Notes under the pieces: generated by a model
The model's database searches: none
What the model saw: the letters and a program-made list of their open reading frames with translations, nothing else
What the model was told of the DNA's origin: nothing
Source of the DNA: Natrialba swarupiae
GTDB lineage: Archaea > Halobacteriota > Halobacteria > Halobacteriales > Natrialbaceae
NCBI RefSeq assembly: GCF_008245225.1
Contig: NZ_VTAW01000001.1
Location: forward strand, 248,001-312,000
Direction: 5' to 3'
DNA: 64,000 nucleotides
Part shown: positions 6,712-16,941 of the stretch, piece after piece
Layout: each line of letters starts with the position of its first letter
Numbering within the stretch: the stretch's first letter is position 1
Translations under genes and position numbers: made by a program

Positions 6712-7677
6712 ATGGCAGACGATACCCACTCCCCAGGCGAACCGACCCCGGCCTCGAGTCGCGAGACCGACCAGTATCTCCCCCCGGACGCGATACCCGA
6801 GACCGCACCCCGGAGAGAGGACGACGTGGCGACGCGACTCGCCGCCGCCGTTCCGTCGATGCCACGGCTCCTGAAGTACGCGATCGCGATCACGGTTGCG
6901 GTGCTCTGGATCGTCCCGTTTCTGGGGCTGTTCATGGCGTCGTTCCGGCCGCTCGGCGAGATCCTCGCCGGCTGGTGGCACGTCGAGGGAATGACGATCA
7001 CCCTCGAGAACTACACGCGGGCGTGGTCGTATCAGACGGCACCGATGGGTCGGGCGCTGTTCAACACCCTGGTCGTCACCGTGCCGGCGGTGCTCGTCGT
7101 CATGTTGCTCGGCGCGATGGCGGCGTACCCGTTTGCACGGTTCGAGTTCCCGCTGAAGACGACGCTGTTTTTCCTGATCTTGCTCGTGATGGCTGCTCCG
7201 CCGGAGCTGGTCGCGATGGGCAACTACAACACGCTCCGCGAGATCGGGCTGTTCGACAGCTACATGGGGTTGATCCTGGTCCACATCGGCTGGGGGCTGG
7301 GCTGGGTCGTCCTCTTCCTTCGCAACTACCTGCTCGGCATTCCCGTCGAGCTAGAGGAAGCCGCACGCATCGACGGTGCCTCGCGGTATCAGATCTTCCG
7401 GACGATCATCCTGCCGCTGTCGACGCCCGCGCTCGTCTCCGTGGCGGTAATCCAGTTCACCTGGGTCTGGAACGCCTTCTTCTTCCCGCTCGTCTTCATG
7501 CGCTCGCCGGAACTCTACCTCGCCCCGCAGGTCCTCCCGCTGATGACCGGCCGCATCCAGGTCGAGTGGGGGCTCGTCGCCGCCGGCTCGGTGATGACGA
7601 TGGCCGTCCCCGTCTTCCTCTTTCTGGTACTCGAGCGCTACTACAAACAGGGGGTGGTTGCGGCGGTCACGGACTGA
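6712..7677 (+). CDS. ABC transporter permease, MalG/UgpE-like
   Basis: The product is a 321-residue second permease of the importer. An unusually long hydrophilic N-terminus of about 50 residues (rich in Pro, Glu and Asp) precedes six membrane helices. The EAA loop is LEEAARIDGASRYQIFRTI near residue 218, followed by LPLSTPALVS. Such subunits form the transmembrane channel with the MalF-type partner. It is the last gene of the plus-strand operon; a binding-protein gene lies just beyond on the opposite strand. Confidence 0.92.
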   Translation: MADDTHSPGEPTPASSRETDQYLPPDAIPETAPRREDDVATRLAAAVPSMPRLLKYAIAITVAVLWIVPFLGLFMASFRPLGEILAGWWHVEGMTITLENYTRAWSYQTAPMGRALFNTLVVTVPAVLVVMLLGAMAAYPFARFEFPLKTTLFFLILLVMAAPPELVAMGNYNTLREIGLFDSYMGLILVHIGWGLGWVVLFLRNYLLGIPVELEEAARIDGASRYQIFRTIILPLSTPALVSVAVIQFTWVWNAFFFPLVFMRSPELYLAPQVLPLMTGRIQVEWGLVAAGSVMTMAVPVFLFLVLERYYKQGVVAAVTD

Positions 7678-7821
7678 CCACGCGTCGATCCGGTTTTCGC
7701 CCGGCGGTTCGTCGTCGAACCGCTACTCGTCGTCGCTGACTTGCGGTTGTGCGTGCTGGCTCGAGAACGCTCGAACGCCATAACACAGCTGTTCGAGCCG
7801 TTACGACGCCGATCGTCGCCC

Positions 7822-8118
7822 CTATAACGGCCCGATCCCAGTCGCCGTAGCGATCACCGCGAGAGCGATCGCGAGCAGGTTCGCGACGAGGAATGCGGTC
7901 GTCGATCGCCAGGCGAAATAGAGGAAGGTGAGGAGTGGGAGGGCGGCGACGATCGCCGGTCGGACGCCCTGGACCGCAAGCGTCGCGAGAAAGGCGGTCG
8001 TAAACAGGTAGAGGACGTCCATCGCGAGTGTGCTGGCGTTGCGCCGACGCATCTCCTGTCCCAGGACGTACACCGCCTCGGCGGGGCCGCCGCCACGCGT
8101 TCGATCGCCGTCGACCAC
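7822..8118 (-). CDS. small two-helix membrane protein downstream of binding protein
   Basis: The product has 98 residues. A soluble N-terminus of about 30 residues ends in RRRNASTL. Hydrophobic helices follow around residues 33-65 (probably two closely spaced) and 70-95. It starts one base after the stop of the solute-binding protein gene, so the two are co-transcribed and probably translationally coupled. I do not recognise the family. It may be an accessory or anchoring subunit for the importer, but that is inferred only from position. Confidence 0.65.
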   Translation of the reverse strand: MVDGDRTRGGGPAEAVYVLGQEMRRRNASTLAMDVLYLFTTAFLATLAVQGVRPAIVAALPLLTFLYFAWRSTTAFLVANLLAIALAVIATATGIGPL

Positions 8119-8119
8119 G

Positions 8120-9648: not shown

Positions 9649-10821
9649 ATGAACGAGAAACGTACGGTAGTTACCCTGTTCGGGGTCGGCGTCGCGGTCG
9701 TGACGGCGTACATCGCCTACCGATTCATCGCGGCGCTTACCATTGCCGTCTTTCTCTACTACTCGACGCGGCGCTTCTACAAGTCCCTCGAGCGGCTTCA
9801 CCTTCCCGATAAGGCACGTGCCGGACTCGTCATCTCGTTTCTCGGCGTTCCGTTGCTCGTTCTCATCACCTACACCGTCGCCCTCATCGTGGTCGAGATC
9901 CGCAACTTCGCTGCCGAGTATCCGGTCACCGAGATGCTTCCACAGGACGTCGTCTGGGTACAGAGCCTCGAGAACCCGCCGGAGCTCACGATTCAGGGGC
10001 TGGCCGTCGCCTACCAGGCCGGCACTTTCGACCCGTTTATCGACTTCGCGGTCGACCACGCCGGCCTGCTGACGAGCGTCGTCTCGAACGTGCTGTTGAA
10101 TCTGTTGATCGTCGTCGTCGTCACCTACTACCTCCTGATCGACGGCTCGAAGTTCCACGAGTGGTTACTCCGGTTCGACGACGACGCGATCGTCCGCGAG
10201 TACCTGGAGACCGCCGACAAGGAACTCGAGGCCGTACTGTTCGGAAACCTGCTGAACGTGATCCTCATCTCGCTGATCGCCATCGTCACGTTCATGGGGT
10301 ACAACCTAGCGGTCCCGTCGGCCGTCGAGATTCCCTACCCCGCACTCGCCGGCGCGCTCACCGGTATCGCGAGTCTGATTCCGGTCGTCGGGATGAAAAT
10401 CGTCTACGTTCCCGTCGCCATCGCGGCGGCCGTCCCGCTCGTCCTCGACGGCACCACCTCGCTGATCGTCTATCTGGTGGGCTTTCTGGTGCTCACGATC
10501 GTCGTCGTCGATACGATTCCCGATCTCGTCCTCCGTCCGTACCTGAGTGGCGAGCGCACCCACGTCGGCTTGCTGATGCTCGCGTACATCTTCGGCCCGA
10601 TCGTCTTCGGTTTCTACGGGCTCTTTTTGGCCCCGATCATCCTCGTCCTCGGACTGACGTTCGCCGACACCGCGCTTCCGCGACTCCTCGGTGCCAACGC
10701 CGGTCGGCGCTCCGGCCCACCCGAACGAACCGAGGGCGTCTCGGTCTCGGGACAAACCGAGGGCGTCTCGGTCTCGACGCAATCTCCCTCGAGCGAACCG
10801 TCGGGGGAAGCCAGCCAGTGA
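9649..10821 (+). CDS. AI-2E family transporter (membrane exporter-like)
   Basis: The product is a 390-residue membrane protein. It has an N-terminal pair of helices (residues 8-45), a soluble stretch, and five to six more helices, with the family-typical YLSGERTHVGLLMLAYIFGP near residue 300 and the following LFLAPIILVLGL. This superfamily includes autoinducer-2 exporters, but in haloarchaea members are of unknown substrate and some may act as Na+/H+ antiporters. The C-terminal tail holds a duplicated nine-residue unit TEGVSVS(G/T)Q. A TATTTG element about 30 nt upstream of the ATG is a likely promoter. Confidence 0.88.
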   Translation: MNEKRTVVTLFGVGVAVVTAYIAYRFIAALTIAVFLYYSTRRFYKSLERLHLPDKARAGLVISFLGVPLLVLITYTVALIVVEIRNFAAEYPVTEMLPQDVVWVQSLENPPELTIQGLAVAYQAGTFDPFIDFAVDHAGLLTSVVSNVLLNLLIVVVVTYYLLIDGSKFHEWLLRFDDDAIVREYLETADKELEAVLFGNLLNVILISLIAIVTFMGYNLAVPSAVEIPYPALAGALTGIASLIPVVGMKIVYVPVAIAAAVPLVLDGTTSLIVYLVGFLVLTIVVVDTIPDLVLRPYLSGERTHVGLLMLAYIFGPIVFGFYGLFLAPIILVLGLTFADTALPRLLGANAGRRSGPPERTEGVSVSGQTEGVSVSTQSPSSEPSGEASQ

Positions 10822-11709: not shown

Positions 11710-12115
11710 GAGATCGTCTAACCGACACCGCCTTTCGGCGTTCCACGCCTGAGACGGTCTGCTGTCCGTCAGCTGTAACATTCCCTCGCTCGGGACGTAC
11801 TGGAGTTCAACGATGCGGAGGGCCCCATCCACAGGCTTATTAACTCATTTAATCAATAGAGGTATATCCGATTCAGCGTACCCAGCCCGTACTATCGGTA
11901 GGCCGACCAATCATCGCGCGAGGATGGATCTGGCCCGACCCCAGAACGGGTGACTCTCCAATATCAAGTTTACTCAGCTTTGAGTACAATCTATCGCTAT
12001 TCGGCTACTGTGGGCCGTTATGAACTCCCATATGGCAACGTGAGATTAGGTAATTTGTATCACACGCAGGATAGGATCCTCGGCGTTTATGTACCAGCGT
12101 GATTGCATCCCTAGT
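11710..12115 (+). promoter_or_regulatory. 406-bp leader region before pckA
   Basis: I see no gene here. The centre is AT-rich for this genome and contains several AT blocks near 11838-11872 and around 11960. A GTTTATG element at 12085-12091 lies 25 nt before the pckA ATG and is the likely TATA box. The unusual length suggests room for transcription-factor sites controlling gluconeogenesis, but I find no clear palindrome and no RNA motif I can name. Confidence 0.45.
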
Positions 12116-13627
12116 ATGTCCGAAACCGGGACCAAGCGTCGGTCTCCCAGACGAGAGCTTCCGGATCCGACTGAGGCGTCGAACGTGCGATACAACCCTA
12201 CGCTCGAGGAGCTACGTGAACTCGCCGAAGACGACGAGATCACCACCGAGTTCGGCTCCTCGTCGTACGTCAGCGAGTACCGCTCGCGGTGTGCGGACAA
12301 GACCAAAAACGCAGTCGACGACGAGTTTTCGACCGAGGACTACGACCTGCTCGAGAACGCCGTCGACGCCGTCGAAGCGCGTGAGATGATCTGTGTCGAC
12401 CGGCTCATGGGGCGCCACCCCGACGCGACCTTCTGTTGCCGTCTCTACGTGCCGGTAGCACACGCTCGCATCGCCCTGGCGTGGGCGAAGCTGTTCGAGC
12501 CGGCCGACGGCCGCGAACCCGACCTCGTGACCGTCCAGGACCCCGACCACGAGCGGACGGCGATCCGCGTACTCCCCGAGGACGGGTTCACCGCGGTACT
12601 CGGCAGCGATTACACCGGCGAGGCGAAGAAGTCGTTCCTCCGCCTCTTCATGTACCGTACGAAACAGCGTGGCGGTCTCGGTCTGCACGCGGGCAGCAAG
12701 CGTGTACGGGTCCGCGACGCTGACGGCGATATGCACACTGTCGGCCAGGTCTTCCTCGGCCTCTCGGCGACCGGCAAGTCGACGCTGACCTCCCACGGCC
12801 TCTGGCTCGAAGAGCCCGAAGACGCCGTCATGCTCCAGGACGACGTCTGTGCGTTGCTCCCGGACGGCTCCGTCGCCGGAAGCGAAGGCAAGGGGCTGTT
12901 CATCAAGACGATCGGCCTCGAGCGAGAGGAACAGCCCACCCTCTATACGGCTGCGACCCACGAATCGGCGGTGCTCGAGAACGTCGCCGTCGACGACGAC
13001 GGAACCGTCGACTTCGACGAGCCCCGATACACGAAAAACTCCCGGGCGATCGTCCAGCGCTCGGAACTCGAGAGCGCCGACGAGGAGATCGACTTAGACG
13101 GCGTCGACCAGGTCTTTTTCATCACGCGCAACCCGCTTATGCCCCCGGTCGCGAAACTCGACGAGGAGGAGGCGGCCGTCGCGTTCATGCTCGGCGAGTC
13201 GATCGAGACCAGCGCGGGCGACCCCTCGCGTGCGGGCGAATCGATCCGCGTCGTCGGAACGAATCCGTTTATCATCGGCTCGGAGGGCGAAGAAGGGAAC
13301 CAGTTTCGCGATCTCATCGCCGATCTGGACGTCGACTGTTTCGTCATCAACACCGGCTATCTCGGCGACGAGTCCAAAGATATCGGCGTCACCGAGTCGG
13401 TGACGATCCTCACCGAACTCGCCCGTGGGACGATCGAGTGGACCGACGACGAGGCGACCGGCCTCACGCTCCCCGAAGCGGTCCCTGGCCTGGACATCGA
13501 GGCGTTCTCCGTCCCCGACCACGTCGACGATTACGAGACCGCCGCCGCTGAACTCCGCGAGGAGCGCCTCGAGTATCTCGAGCAGTTCGAGGACTTAGAC
13601 GAGAAGATCAAAGAAGCGACGTACTGA
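12116..13627 (+). CDS. pckA: ATP-dependent phosphoenolpyruvate carboxykinase
   Basis: The product is a 503-residue cytosolic enzyme converting oxaloacetate and ATP to PEP, CO2 and ADP, the entry to gluconeogenesis. Signature motifs are present: the kinase-1a P-loop GLSATGKST at residues 215-223, a metal site shortly before it in the GLGLHAGSKR region, the kinase-2 LQDDVCALL near residue 240, and EGKGLFIKTIGL just after it. The length suits the ATP-dependent family. The ATG at 12116 follows a TATA-like element by about 25 nt; the upstream open extension is rejected. It is transcribed alone; the following sequence is foreign in composition. Confidence 0.92.
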   Translation: MSETGTKRRSPRRELPDPTEASNVRYNPTLEELRELAEDDEITTEFGSSSYVSEYRSRCADKTKNAVDDEFSTEDYDLLENAVDAVEAREMICVDRLMGRHPDATFCCRLYVPVAHARIALAWAKLFEPADGREPDLVTVQDPDHERTAIRVLPEDGFTAVLGSDYTGEAKKSFLRLFMYRTKQRGGLGLHAGSKRVRVRDADGDMHTVGQVFLGLSATGKSTLTSHGLWLEEPEDAVMLQDDVCALLPDGSVAGSEGKGLFIKTIGLEREEQPTLYTAATHESAVLENVAVDDDGTVDFDEPRYTKNSRAIVQRSELESADEEIDLDGVDQVFFITRNPLMPPVAKLDEEEAAVAFMLGESIETSAGDPSRAGESIRVVGTNPFIIGSEGEEGNQFRDLIADLDVDCFVINTGYLGDESKDIGVTESVTILTELARGTIEWTDDEATGLTLPEAVPGLDIEAFSVPDHVDDYETAAAELREERLEYLEQFEDLDEKIKEATY

Positions 13628-13671
13628 TCGACCGGTTTCACTCGAGTCCGAGTTATCCAATAGAGTCGGAT

Positions 13672-13860
13672 TATCTGAGCAGCAGAGCAACTAAATTGAG
13701 CAGCGGTTATATAGAAAATGACGGGATTTTTACCCTTGGTGTAGATGTAGGTGAAAGCATTGGAGTATTTGATGTATTTAGCGATGTCGGAAATTCAGTA
13801 GAACACCCTGTTACAGGACAAAGTGGTTTTAACGACGAATATGCACAGAAATGTGGTTGA
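13672..13860 (+). pseudogene. AT-rich C-terminal gene fragment, unknown family
   Basis: An open frame without a start codon runs to a TGA at 13858-13860. From about 13699 it reads as a plausible protein end: SSGYIENDGIFTLGVDVG, ESIGVFDVFSDVG and a cysteine-containing close at CG. Codon use is AT-rich and unlike the pckA gene just upstream, matching instead the AT-rich body of the next gene. It ends 6 bp from the stop of that gene on the other strand. I read it as the tail of an imported gene whose start was lost when the segment was inserted or rearranged; the first dozen codons may be ordinary intergenic DNA. I recognise no family. Confidence 0.45.
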
Positions 13861-13866
13861 AGAAGG

Positions 13867-15474
13867 CTAGTCCCAGACCTCGGCTACCGAGTTAGTATAG
13901 TTAAAGTTTCTGATATCTTCAACTTTCTCCTCTTCGACAAAGACGTATGTCTCGGTATCGCCAAGCTCTCCTTCTGCTACCAAGTATCCGTCCGGTACTT
14001 CGGACTCTACATGGCTCTTTGCATGTAGGGGTTCGTGTTTTTGGCTAGTTATTACTGTCCACTTCTTTCTTGTATCTTCCTCGAACTTATTTAGCTTGTT
14101 TTTGTTAAAGTTCGGTACAAACTCTGTATCCAACTGTTCTGCATATTCGTGTGATGTTAAGAATCCAAGTATCTTTGTCTCTCTAATACCGTCTACCATC
14201 TCTGTAGGAGAATCGTTTCCGGCCGAGTCAATAAATCTTAAAGAGTTTCCGAATATTGCGGAGTGTATATCGGTTTTATCCAGTACTTCGTAGTTTCTGT
14301 CTTTCTGTTTTTCTATAGTGTTTTTCATTTCCTGGTAGTCGTACGGTCCTAGTGCTGTACCGTCTCGGTATTCGCTTTCCATTGCCGGCCGGATGAAGTC
14401 TGTTCCTGGCTGTTGTATGCTGTCACGGTTTCTACCCCACATCGGTTCACAGTAGTGGAGGTTCCAGTCGCCGGATTCATCTTTAAGCGCGATATTGATG
14501 ACTTCATGTGTGGTTGTCGGTTCGTATGTTTCCCAGACAACCATGTCGTCCCGGTCCCAGTCCAGAAGCTCTTTTCCAAAGTATCGGAGAGCGTTGTAAC
14601 CAACTACGCTACTTGTCCCGCTGCCACGGATGTTTGAGTCTATTACTCCTTTTCCCATTCTTATGGTTGGGAATATTCCTTTTACCATGCCGTACAGTTT
14701 TTCTTGTCTTGTACCGTTTTCCGGTATTTCTTCTTCTACAAAACTTTTGATATCGTCGTAACCTCTGATTCCGGAGGTATGTGTGGTTAATACATCTTCC
14801 CCGGTTACAGGAGGTCCGTCTATGTCGTTCCAGTATTTTTCGTCCCAGTCTTCTTCGGTTAGTGTGTTTACTATGGTATCCCATTCTCTTTCTGTGGTGT
14901 AGTCTGAGTCTCCTCCGGCTGTCTCTGCCTGGTCGCGGAAGTCTACTTTAAATCCTTTCCACGGGTTTTCGACCGTTTCTGTAACTGTTTCCGTATCCCC
15001 TTGGTCGTCTCGAAGTTCGATTTCGACCGTGTTTTCGCCGGGCTGGAACTGCTGGGTCGGAATCGCCCCAGATAGCTCCGCCGTCTTCCCGTCGATACTC
15101 ACCGTTTCCTCGAGATCGTCGAGGGTCGCCGATCCGAACACGCCCTCGAGACTGGCGTCGACGGTGAGATCCTCGAGTTCCGCATCGGACGTCAGCGACA
15201 CCGTGAGTTCCGACCGCTCGTCGGCGTTCTCGTCGGTGACCAGTGGAATGTAGCCGTGTTCGACCTCGAGTTCGACCTCGGGATCGACCAGCCCGCCCTG
15301 TGGATCGTCGCTGTCGGATTCACGACTCGGGTCGGTGTCGCTGACGGGCTCACCGTCTGCGTCGGTCGCCCCCTCCTCGAGTACGTCGGTACAGCCAGCG
15401 ATACTAGCACCCGACGGTACAGACAGCGCTACCAGAACCGTTCGCCGGTCGATTCGCCACTTACGGTCACCCAT
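13867..15474 (-). CDS. chimeric Tat lipoprotein with AT-rich C-terminal body
   Basis: The product has 535 residues. Residues 1-155 look native: Tat motif DRRTVLVAL, lipobox SIAGC (Cys28), a Ser/Asp/Glu linker and a beta-rich domain (EVELEVEHGYIPL..., ending PGENTVEIELRDD), encoded in GC-rich DNA. From about residue 157 (near 15005) the DNA turns strongly AT-rich with codons like TCT, TTA, AAA and AGA to the end. This body has scattered Trp, Cys and His (THEVINIALKDE, DWNLHYCEPMWG) and ends TNSVAEVWD. I recognise no domain in it. It should sit outside the cell as a lipid-anchored protein. The composition break within one intact frame suggests in-frame fusion of transferred DNA to a resident export module. 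Confidence 0.75.
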   Translation of the reverse strand: MGDRKWRIDRRTVLVALSVPSGASIAGCTDVLEEGATDADGEPVSDTDPSRESDSDDPQGGLVDPEVELEVEHGYIPLVTDENADERSELTVSLTSDAELEDLTVDASLEGVFGSATLDDLEETVSIDGKTAELSGAIPTQQFQPGENTVEIELRDDQGDTETVTETVENPWKGFKVDFRDQAETAGGDSDYTTEREWDTIVNTLTEEDWDEKYWNDIDGPPVTGEDVLTTHTSGIRGYDDIKSFVEEEIPENGTRQEKLYGMVKGIFPTIRMGKGVIDSNIRGSGTSSVVGYNALRYFGKELLDWDRDDMVVWETYEPTTTHEVINIALKDESGDWNLHYCEPMWGRNRDSIQQPGTDFIRPAMESEYRDGTALGPYDYQEMKNTIEKQKDRNYEVLDKTDIHSAIFGNSLRFIDSAGNDSPTEMVDGIRETKILGFLTSHEYAEQLDTEFVPNFNKNKLNKFEEDTRKKWTVITSQKHEPLHAKSHVESEVPDGYLVAEGELGDTETYVFVEEEKVEDIRNFNYTNSVAEVWD

Positions 15475-15573: not shown

Positions 15574-16684
15574 TCAGGGGCGCTCGAGGATTCGCTTTCG
15601 TTTCTCGACTGCTGATCCGTATCGTCGCACTGTATGCGACGATGTATGGCGTAACTGTTCTCGAACATGCTCGAGATCACCGTCCTCGGCCATGTGCTTC
15701 CCGACAGTATCTCGAAGCGTGAGCCACGTAATTTGGCGACCATCGTCGTCGATTTCCCCAATATCGCAGAGTTTGCGCAGCAGATAGTTGAGCGAGTTCG
15801 ACTGATATGGGTTTTTCTTCCGCGTCAACCACAACAGGTCGGTGTCGTCGTACTTGGAGTACTGTGCTCGCTCTTCGAGCCAGTTCTCGAGCGCCCGCGT
15901 CGTTTGCGGACGTAACGCGACGATCCACTGATCGTCCTCTGACGATACCTCCTCGTTCGGAATCTGTAGAATACCGTTCTCGAGATCGAGCCAGAACGTC
16001 TTCGCCCGCTCGACCTCGTCGGGGCGAAGCCCCGTATCGAGCGTCGTCCAGATGAGACTCGGGTATTTCCAGCTGTCCGCTCGCTTCCAATCGTCCGTTC
16101 CGATCTCCGATTTCGGAACCCCGAACCGCTGCGCGAGGTATTCCTTCCATCGATCCCGTTCGTCGGGTGAGAGGCTCGTGTAACTCGGAATCGATCCGTA
16201 TTCGAGGGCGGCTTCGCGGAGCATTGCCATCTCCGTTCTCGTCAGGCAATCCTCGAGCGACGAATCCTCCTCGGAGACCGTGAAACTGAACTCCGGTTCC
16301 CATTCGGGTGCGCCTTTGATGTGGTGTTTCCACTTGAAGAGCAATTTTAGCGCTTTCTCGATTCCCTTCTTGTACGAATTCTCGTGATCCTGCAACGCAA
16401 CGTGTTGGAGGTATCGATCCGCGTGTTCTGCATCCACCAGTAACGTGTACCCGTTCTCGAGTTCGGACCAGACGTACCGGTAGAAGCCGTCGATTCGGTA
16501 GATGGCGACCTCCACGGTTTTTTTTGCTGTATCCCTCCTCCTGCTGGGGATCTTTTCCTTCGTCGAGCAACCAGTCGATCAACCGCTTCTGGTGGTGCTT
16601 GTAATCGAAGACGTGTTTTTCGTTTGCTTCCAGGGTTTTCCGAGTCGGTTCGGAAAGGATACGGATGTCTCTGTATGTGGCCAT
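15574..16684 (-). pseudogene. tyrosine recombinase/integrase, frameshifted in an A8 run
   Basis: A phage-type integrase is split into two frames. The first piece begins at ATG 16684 (MATYRDIRILSEPTRKTL) and carries the SAM-like core-binding start. It reaches a run of eight A residues on the coding strand (16518-16525 on the plus strand). Removing one A would give YSKKTVEVAIYRIDGF and join it to the second piece, which runs to 15574. That piece has the catalytic domain: TGLRPDEVE (first Arg), WLTLRDTVGKHM (second Arg; the usual His is Thr), LRHTSSHTV and the nucleophile in RRYG. It is either inactive, rescued by slippage at the homopolymer, or a sequencing error. The tRNA-His next door is the probable integration target. 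Confidence 0.75.
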
Positions 16685-16731: not shown

Positions 16732-16868
16732 AATGTATTAGTACAGGCATTTTTAAACACCCGGGTACGGCGGGGCGACTACCTATTGTTCTAACCGTGA
16801 AGCCTGTGAATGGCGATCGGACCCAAAACTGAGAGACCTGAAAATCGCCCGTAGAAACCGTGATGGAG

Positions 16869-16941
16869 GTCCGGGTGCGAGAATCGAACCCGCGTCTCAG
16901 CCTCCACAAGGCTGAAGGATAACCACTACCCCAACCCGGAC
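16869..16941 (-). tRNA. tRNA-His (GTG)
   Basis: The 73-nt gene on the minus strand folds into a cloverleaf. The acceptor stem includes the extra G-1 paired with C73 that is diagnostic for tRNA-His. The anticodon stem is CAGCC/GGCTG with loop TTGTGGA, giving anticodon GTG. The T-arm contains GGTTCGATT. CCA is not encoded. A CTAAATAA box about 15-20 nt upstream (16954-16961) is the likely promoter. The 3' end faces the integrase 185 bp away, the usual arrangement at an integration site. Confidence 0.95.

Follow-up and report, generated by a model that had tools for sequence, protein, structure and literature searches.

How a single exported protein comes to be encoded partly in GC-rich and partly in AT-rich DNA is the question raised by one open reading frame in the window, the 64,000-nucleotide stretch of the Natrialba swarupiae genome analysed here. 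The frame, P0001, lies on the minus strand at 13867..15474 (stop codon included) and translates into 535 residues. Its first 28 residues (15391..15474, minus strand), which end in RRTVLVALSVPSGASIAGC, form a signal peptide that aligns with the signal and lipobox of the protein family described below; a twin arginine and a lipobox were read by eye within residues 7–28, RIDRRTVLVALSVPSGASIAGC. The break in composition inside P0001 is beyond chance. The GC content is ~0.63–0.64 and GC3 is 0.72 for residues 1–155, versus 0.45 and 0.46, respectively, for residues 170–535, and the maximum-likelihood GC change point within the frame falls at 15036, with a 2logLR of 47.5, whereas the largest value among 300 codon shuffles was 13.0. 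Measured against neighbouring genes, the head of the protein has a codon adaptation of 0.57 and its body one of 0.33, compared with 0.54 for the adjoining integrase and 0.65–0.73 for host genes. A first-pass annotation had described the Tat signal and lipobox, an abrupt change in composition near 15005 and foreign codon use in the AT-rich part, all of which are borne out by these data. Its lower limit for the frame, 13670, is instead 13867, the earlier coordinates having taken in a separate gene fragment at 13690..13860. The annotation had also reported no recognised domain. This holds for domain libraries, as P0001 had no match in Pfam, NCBIfam, PHROG, PADLOC or PDB, but not for relatives, because other members of a family exist. 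A PADLOC match to PDC-S02 (E = 0.019) was too weak to use.

Neither single-sequence searches of GTDB contigs, viral contigs and host-family genomes, made with the body alone, nor whole-protein searches of plasmids and phages returned a credible relative. The weak matches L002, L004, L005 and L006 were signal-peptide-only, chance or antisense, and a profile search that included the signal peptide was swamped by lipobox matches. When 392 genomes of the order were searched, one open frame among several chance matches (L034) was a Tat-type lipoprotein that shares with P0001 the motif block F-x-D...NTLT-x-DW-x-E...ND. As a query, L034 found matches in 10 genomes, in single copy in most, and a scan of GTDB contigs added five loci, in Halapricum, Halolamina, two Halovenus and Halorientalis. 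One member is carried by plasmid pSTJ001 of Halobacterium hubeiense. In total, ~13 loci of the family were found, mostly outside the family to which the window host belongs, and no further member was found among 124 other genomes of that host family. A nanohaloarchaeon or other low-GC symbiont had been proposed as the donor of the AT-rich DNA; low GC is the one point in favour of this idea, which is extremely improbable given that every relative recovered, whether from GTDB contigs or by the other searches, belongs to the Halobacteria.

Profile comparisons connect P0001 to this family. A hidden Markov model of the family body, built without P0001, matched P0001 with E = 5.8e-4, whereas the best unrelated match among 1667 open reading frames had E = 1.1; a whole-protein family model gave E = 4.6e-4, whereas the best-scoring of 2000 shuffled sequences reached 0.083. 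Comparison of the P0001 body with the family by hhalign yielded P = 2.8e-4 and a score of 37, with 100 shuffles scoring at most 21.4. The hhalign match covers a C-terminal block (body 223–349, G-x-L-x-S-x-E ... G-x-L-x-x-x-E), other than the block found by hmmsearch, and the two blocks of P0001 are collinear with those of the family. The alignment, together with hmmsearch, places in P0001 the N-terminal body block of the family, F-x-D ... N-T-x-T-E-x-[DE]-W-x-E-x3-N-D, and the invariant R, R, L, G and C columns of the family's RR...lipobox N-terminus are all kept. The family motif P-E-H-[YF]-[VA]-T is absent from P0001, which has GPYDYQ at this place, with P kept and E-H lost. Because identity to the family is ~22%, with a weak middle of the alignment, and P-E-H is lost, P0001 is a divergent member whose assignment rests on the other blocks. 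As judged from HMM, hhalign and alignment, the AT-rich body, residues 175–535 (13870..14952, minus strand), belongs, as a remote member, to a rare and hitherto unlabelled family of haloarchaeal lipoproteins.

Structure prediction was compared for P0001, modelled from its single sequence, and L053, modelled from a seven-row alignment that includes the P0001 body. The predicted order of secondary-structure elements is alike in the two models; both are poor (pLDDT of 36 and 43), and this likeness is therefore supportive only. A fold search gave no match. A papain- or transglutaminase-like enzyme was considered for the body and rejected, there being no conserved Cys in the alignment, poor models and no fold or PDB sequence match.

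The head of P0001 measures 174 residues, compared with 39–91 in the other members, and the short acidic/Thr linker that joins lipobox and body in the family is not matched. The additional length corresponds to a GC-rich insert of ~100 residues (residues ~65–170; 14965..15282, minus strand), delimited by head lengths and segment matches. The insert has weak matches, at 31–41% identity, to parts of haloarchaeal surface-type open reading frames that are larger and often repetitive, and from these matches and its strand-rich sequence we call it Ig-like, a name that no domain library gives it. The break in composition could mark the place at which a resident GC-rich Tat lipoprotein module, consisting of the signal and this Ig-like domain, recombined in frame with a foreign AT-rich body, much as the first-pass annotation supposed when it described a body fused to a resident export module. 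The insert has no counterpart in other members, and the step is larger in P0001 than in any of them, with a head–body GC3 gap of 0.24 (0.70 versus 0.46) against −0.10 to 0.14, as this proposal would lead one to expect. However, the other members carry lipobox heads of their own, with GC3 above that of the body in eight of nine, and their bodies have GC contents of 0.44–0.58. Since most members thus combine an AT-rich body with a GC-richer head, the GC step is partly a family trait. Nor is the P0001 head clearly resident, because its codon adaptation equals that of the neighbouring integrase, with host genes at higher values; the head and the integrase also have the same GC3, 0.70, so that in composition and codon use the head fits the integrase no less well than it fits the host. 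No protein made of the P0001 head was found in congeners, and the searches yielded no full-length homologue that includes the insert, hence none with uniform composition. We regard fusion to a resident module as unlikely; a true chimera is possible for the Ig-like insert (residues 65–170). In another genome, L064 6825–7109 is a stub with 72% GC that holds the N-terminal part of the family only, the body being missing from that genome.

An AT-rich island of a few kilobases surrounds most family members. Together with the failure to find the family in the 124 host-family genomes, these islands uphold the earlier view that the AT-rich part of P0001 is foreign surface-protein DNA. The lipoprotein family recurs as the chief cargo of integrating elements of 3–5 kb, and in several genomes it has a tyrosine recombinase as its sole, or almost sole, companion between exact direct repeats of the end of a structural-RNA gene. 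The L060 element of Halolamina pelagica, 3,017 bp between exact 22-bp copies of the 3′ end of a tRNA-Ile gene, contains only the lipoprotein and a recombinase; the 3,092-bp L061 element of another Halolamina, between exact 19-bp tRNA-Ser copies, has the same content. A 14-bp repeat, TGAGTGCCGAGGCC, bounds 4.65 kb in L052 (Halapricum) and 3.21 kb in L055 (Halovenus aranensis). The longest direct repeats in shuffled sequences are 12–13 bp, versus the 22, 19, 14 and 14 bp found. In H. pelagica, the sister species, the site occupied in L061 is cleanly empty, such that both flanks join and their overlap is the att sequence; in the corresponding empty-site check of the L060 element, the tRNA-Ile gene does not adjoin the corresponding flank in the sister genome. 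One copy of TGAGTGCCGAGGCC is the 3′ end of the gene for the C/D-box sRNA sR-tMet, which also lies at the boundary in L056 and L063. The sR-tMet gene, with its 3′ end as the apparent attachment site, lies at 9750–9813 in L055, 6522–6594 in L052, 12924–12996 in L056 and 9309–9380 in L063. Two further observations concern these loci. In L052, two more AT-rich lipoproteins (6731–8119) stand beside the family member within the same att-bounded element, and L063, with its two att-like copies, may hold elements in tandem, one of them with a TrmB-like regulator.

Recombinases of the PF00589 type adjoin the family gene in 6 of the ~13 loci. Lipoproteins that are 88% identical occur with recombinases that are 26% identical, and recombinases that are 96% identical occur with lipoproteins that are 65% identical: cargo and recombinase reassort. 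The lipoprotein could still be an ordinary niche gene, such as a binding protein or an enzyme, that rides on islands by chance and has no role in the element. According to the open reading frame lists, no recombinase of this kind lies close by in L040, L054, L057, L058 and L062, the family has no known domain, and the C-terminal part is conserved in the alignment, as expected of a binding or catalytic domain. This reading has real weight while falling short of probable: the gene is paired repeatedly with three unrelated recombinases and is the sole cargo of two elements, and broken copies (an in-frame stop in L056 and a frameshift in L063) point to dispensability. A more far-reaching proposal, which we advance tentatively, is that haloarchaea harbour a class of self-contained two-gene integrative elements whose selected function resides in the lipoprotein, be it surface exclusion, immunity or transfer, and in which this protein has repeatedly acquired new, unrelated recombinase partners directed at RNA genes, sR-tMet included. 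Under our main reading, the recombinase would insert the element into a conserved RNA gene, leaving the gene restored. The lipoprotein would be exported by the Tat pathway and anchored to lipid, with its body displayed at the cell surface, where it would probably alter what enters or attaches to the cell, as in the exclusion of viruses or other elements. Surface exclusion or defence is our leading guess for its function from the genetic context, and a doubtful one.

Some phages of bacteria carry superinfection-exclusion lipoproteins, such as Llp of T5 and Ltp of TP-J34, which are smaller proteins. As lipid-anchored surface proteins on an integrating or viral element, they may offer a parallel in kind to the haloarchaeal family, with no sequence relation seen. 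Alternatively, the lipoprotein might aid the cell-to-cell movement of its element, for example by way of cell fusion or of membrane vesicles like those that carry haloarchaeal plasmids such as pR1SE. The two-gene element shows no other visible transfer function, and vesicle-borne plasmids do occur in haloarchaea (PMC10818511). The pR1SE-type plasmid vesicle elements resemble the present ones in that they are haloarchaeal mobile elements with surface or vesicle functions (PMC10818511); they differ in being larger plasmids, and the plasmid search gave no homology beyond pSTJ001. A role in transfer is rather improbable, as the lipoprotein has no similarity to known viral protein families and neither viral contigs nor phage records showed any sign of it.

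Other small or AT-rich archaeal elements resemble those described here in part. The cryptic integrated elements of Thaumarchaeota span 2.6–98 kb (PMC6563490) and share with them a tyrosine recombinase, direct repeats, insertion at tRNA genes and a potentially very small size. In contrast, the elements studied here have a conserved lipoprotein cargo, one recombinase type at a C/D-box sRNA gene and hosts among the Halobacteria. Islands of Halorubrum ezzemoulense are AT-rich (40–55% GC), carry integrases, often lie near tRNA genes and have hypothetical cargo (PMC11078007). They are alike in being AT-rich insertions with integrases and hypothetical cargo in GC-rich haloarchaea, whereas they consist of gene ensembles that include defence genes, and lipoproteins are unmentioned in that study. 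A 2021 review of archaeal tyrosine recombinases gives tRNA genes, protein genes and intergenic sites as targets, with sRNA genes unmentioned (PMC8371274). Our data suggest that the C/D-box sRNA gene sR-tMet serves as an integration site, of which a short literature search found no earlier report. As far as searched, the lipoprotein cargo family, its reuse with three recombinase types and the sR-tMet target are new. What appeared to be a one-off chimera becomes a recurring system of ~3-kb elements that combine one conserved surface lipoprotein with interchangeable recombinases and that rank with the smaller archaeal integrative elements on record. The system raises the question of which benefit makes a single lipoprotein worth carrying alone; the candidates, exclusion of viruses or elements and cell-to-cell transfer, are assayable in strains of Halolamina or Haloferax that can be grown in culture.

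In the window, a frameshifted integrase and a tRNA-His gene accompany P0001 and give the family's element layout over a 3.2-kb AT-rich stretch. The integrase is a tyrosine recombinase whose C-terminal 313 residues are in frame at 15574..16515 on the minus strand (PF00589, E = 3e-14). Three-frame translation places its N-terminal part (MATYRDIRILSEP...GYSKK), which is intact, in another frame at 16518..16684 of the same strand, with the start at 16684. The frame shifts at a run of eight A (16518–16525), which may be a homopolymer error or a true frameshift; the best homologues, at most 51% identical, have open frames of ~390 residues. Such an error, if it is one, and the draft state of the genome (99 contigs) would suit an assembly artefact that joined two contigs near 15000. 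This explanation is nonetheless very improbable, as the frame is open across the join, the order of lipobox, linker and body is that of the family, and the contig, of 419 kb, extends far beyond the AT-rich stretch on both sides. Beside the integrase is tRNA-His(GTG) (16868..16940, minus strand; ARAGORN and Rfam), the 3′ end of which is the presumed attachment site; a tRNA gene adjoins the recombinase in 13 of 14 loci of window-integrase homologues.

As the first-pass annotation noted, an AT-rich gene fragment converges on the stop codon of P0001. This 5′-truncated open frame without a start (13690..13860, plus strand) encodes 56 residues and has no relatives in the family loci or viral contigs. 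A gene for ATP-dependent PEPCK (12089..13627, plus strand; PF01293 and synteny) borders the AT-rich stretch. PEPCK lies between AKR and this stretch in the window and elsewhere in the genome in G001 and G004; it had no match in congeners G002 and G003, and in the relatives examined it has no adjoining tRNA-His. The distance from a flanking gene (9649–10821 in the window) to tRNA-His is 6.2 kb in the window versus 0.8 kb in G003. Because PEPCK and AKR are also part of the resulting ~5.4 kb of additional DNA, the limits of the element are inferred only. This DNA is missing from G003 and G001, where the genes around the site are different as well. No second copy of the tRNA-His end was found in the window at up to three mismatches, so the distal end of the element has been lost or is unrecognisable, and with the flanking att repeats missing the window copy is a probable remnant and not an intact element.

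Taken together with the family loci, this arrangement makes it probable that P0001 is anchored by lipid at the cell surface and is the cargo of a small integrative element with site-specific insertion. The window copy would have arrived together with a tRNA-targeting type of integrase, inserting at the tRNA-His 3′ end and occupying ~13.65–16.87 kb. The integrase would then have been frameshifted, unless it was misread at the homopolymer, and a deletion would have removed the distal end, including the 5′ portion of the gene that survives as the convergent fragment. The Ig-like spacer may have been gained in the linker within the window lineage. Congener G001 has two copies of the terminal 22 bases of tRNA-His, ~124 bp apart (L077 2687–2831), a duplication that is probably the scar of an excised or decayed element. 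Relatives of the window integrase (L018–L031) point to a broader range of such elements, lying beside tRNA-Glu, tRNA-Gly or tRNA-Thr genes in many haloarchaea, with varying neighbours.
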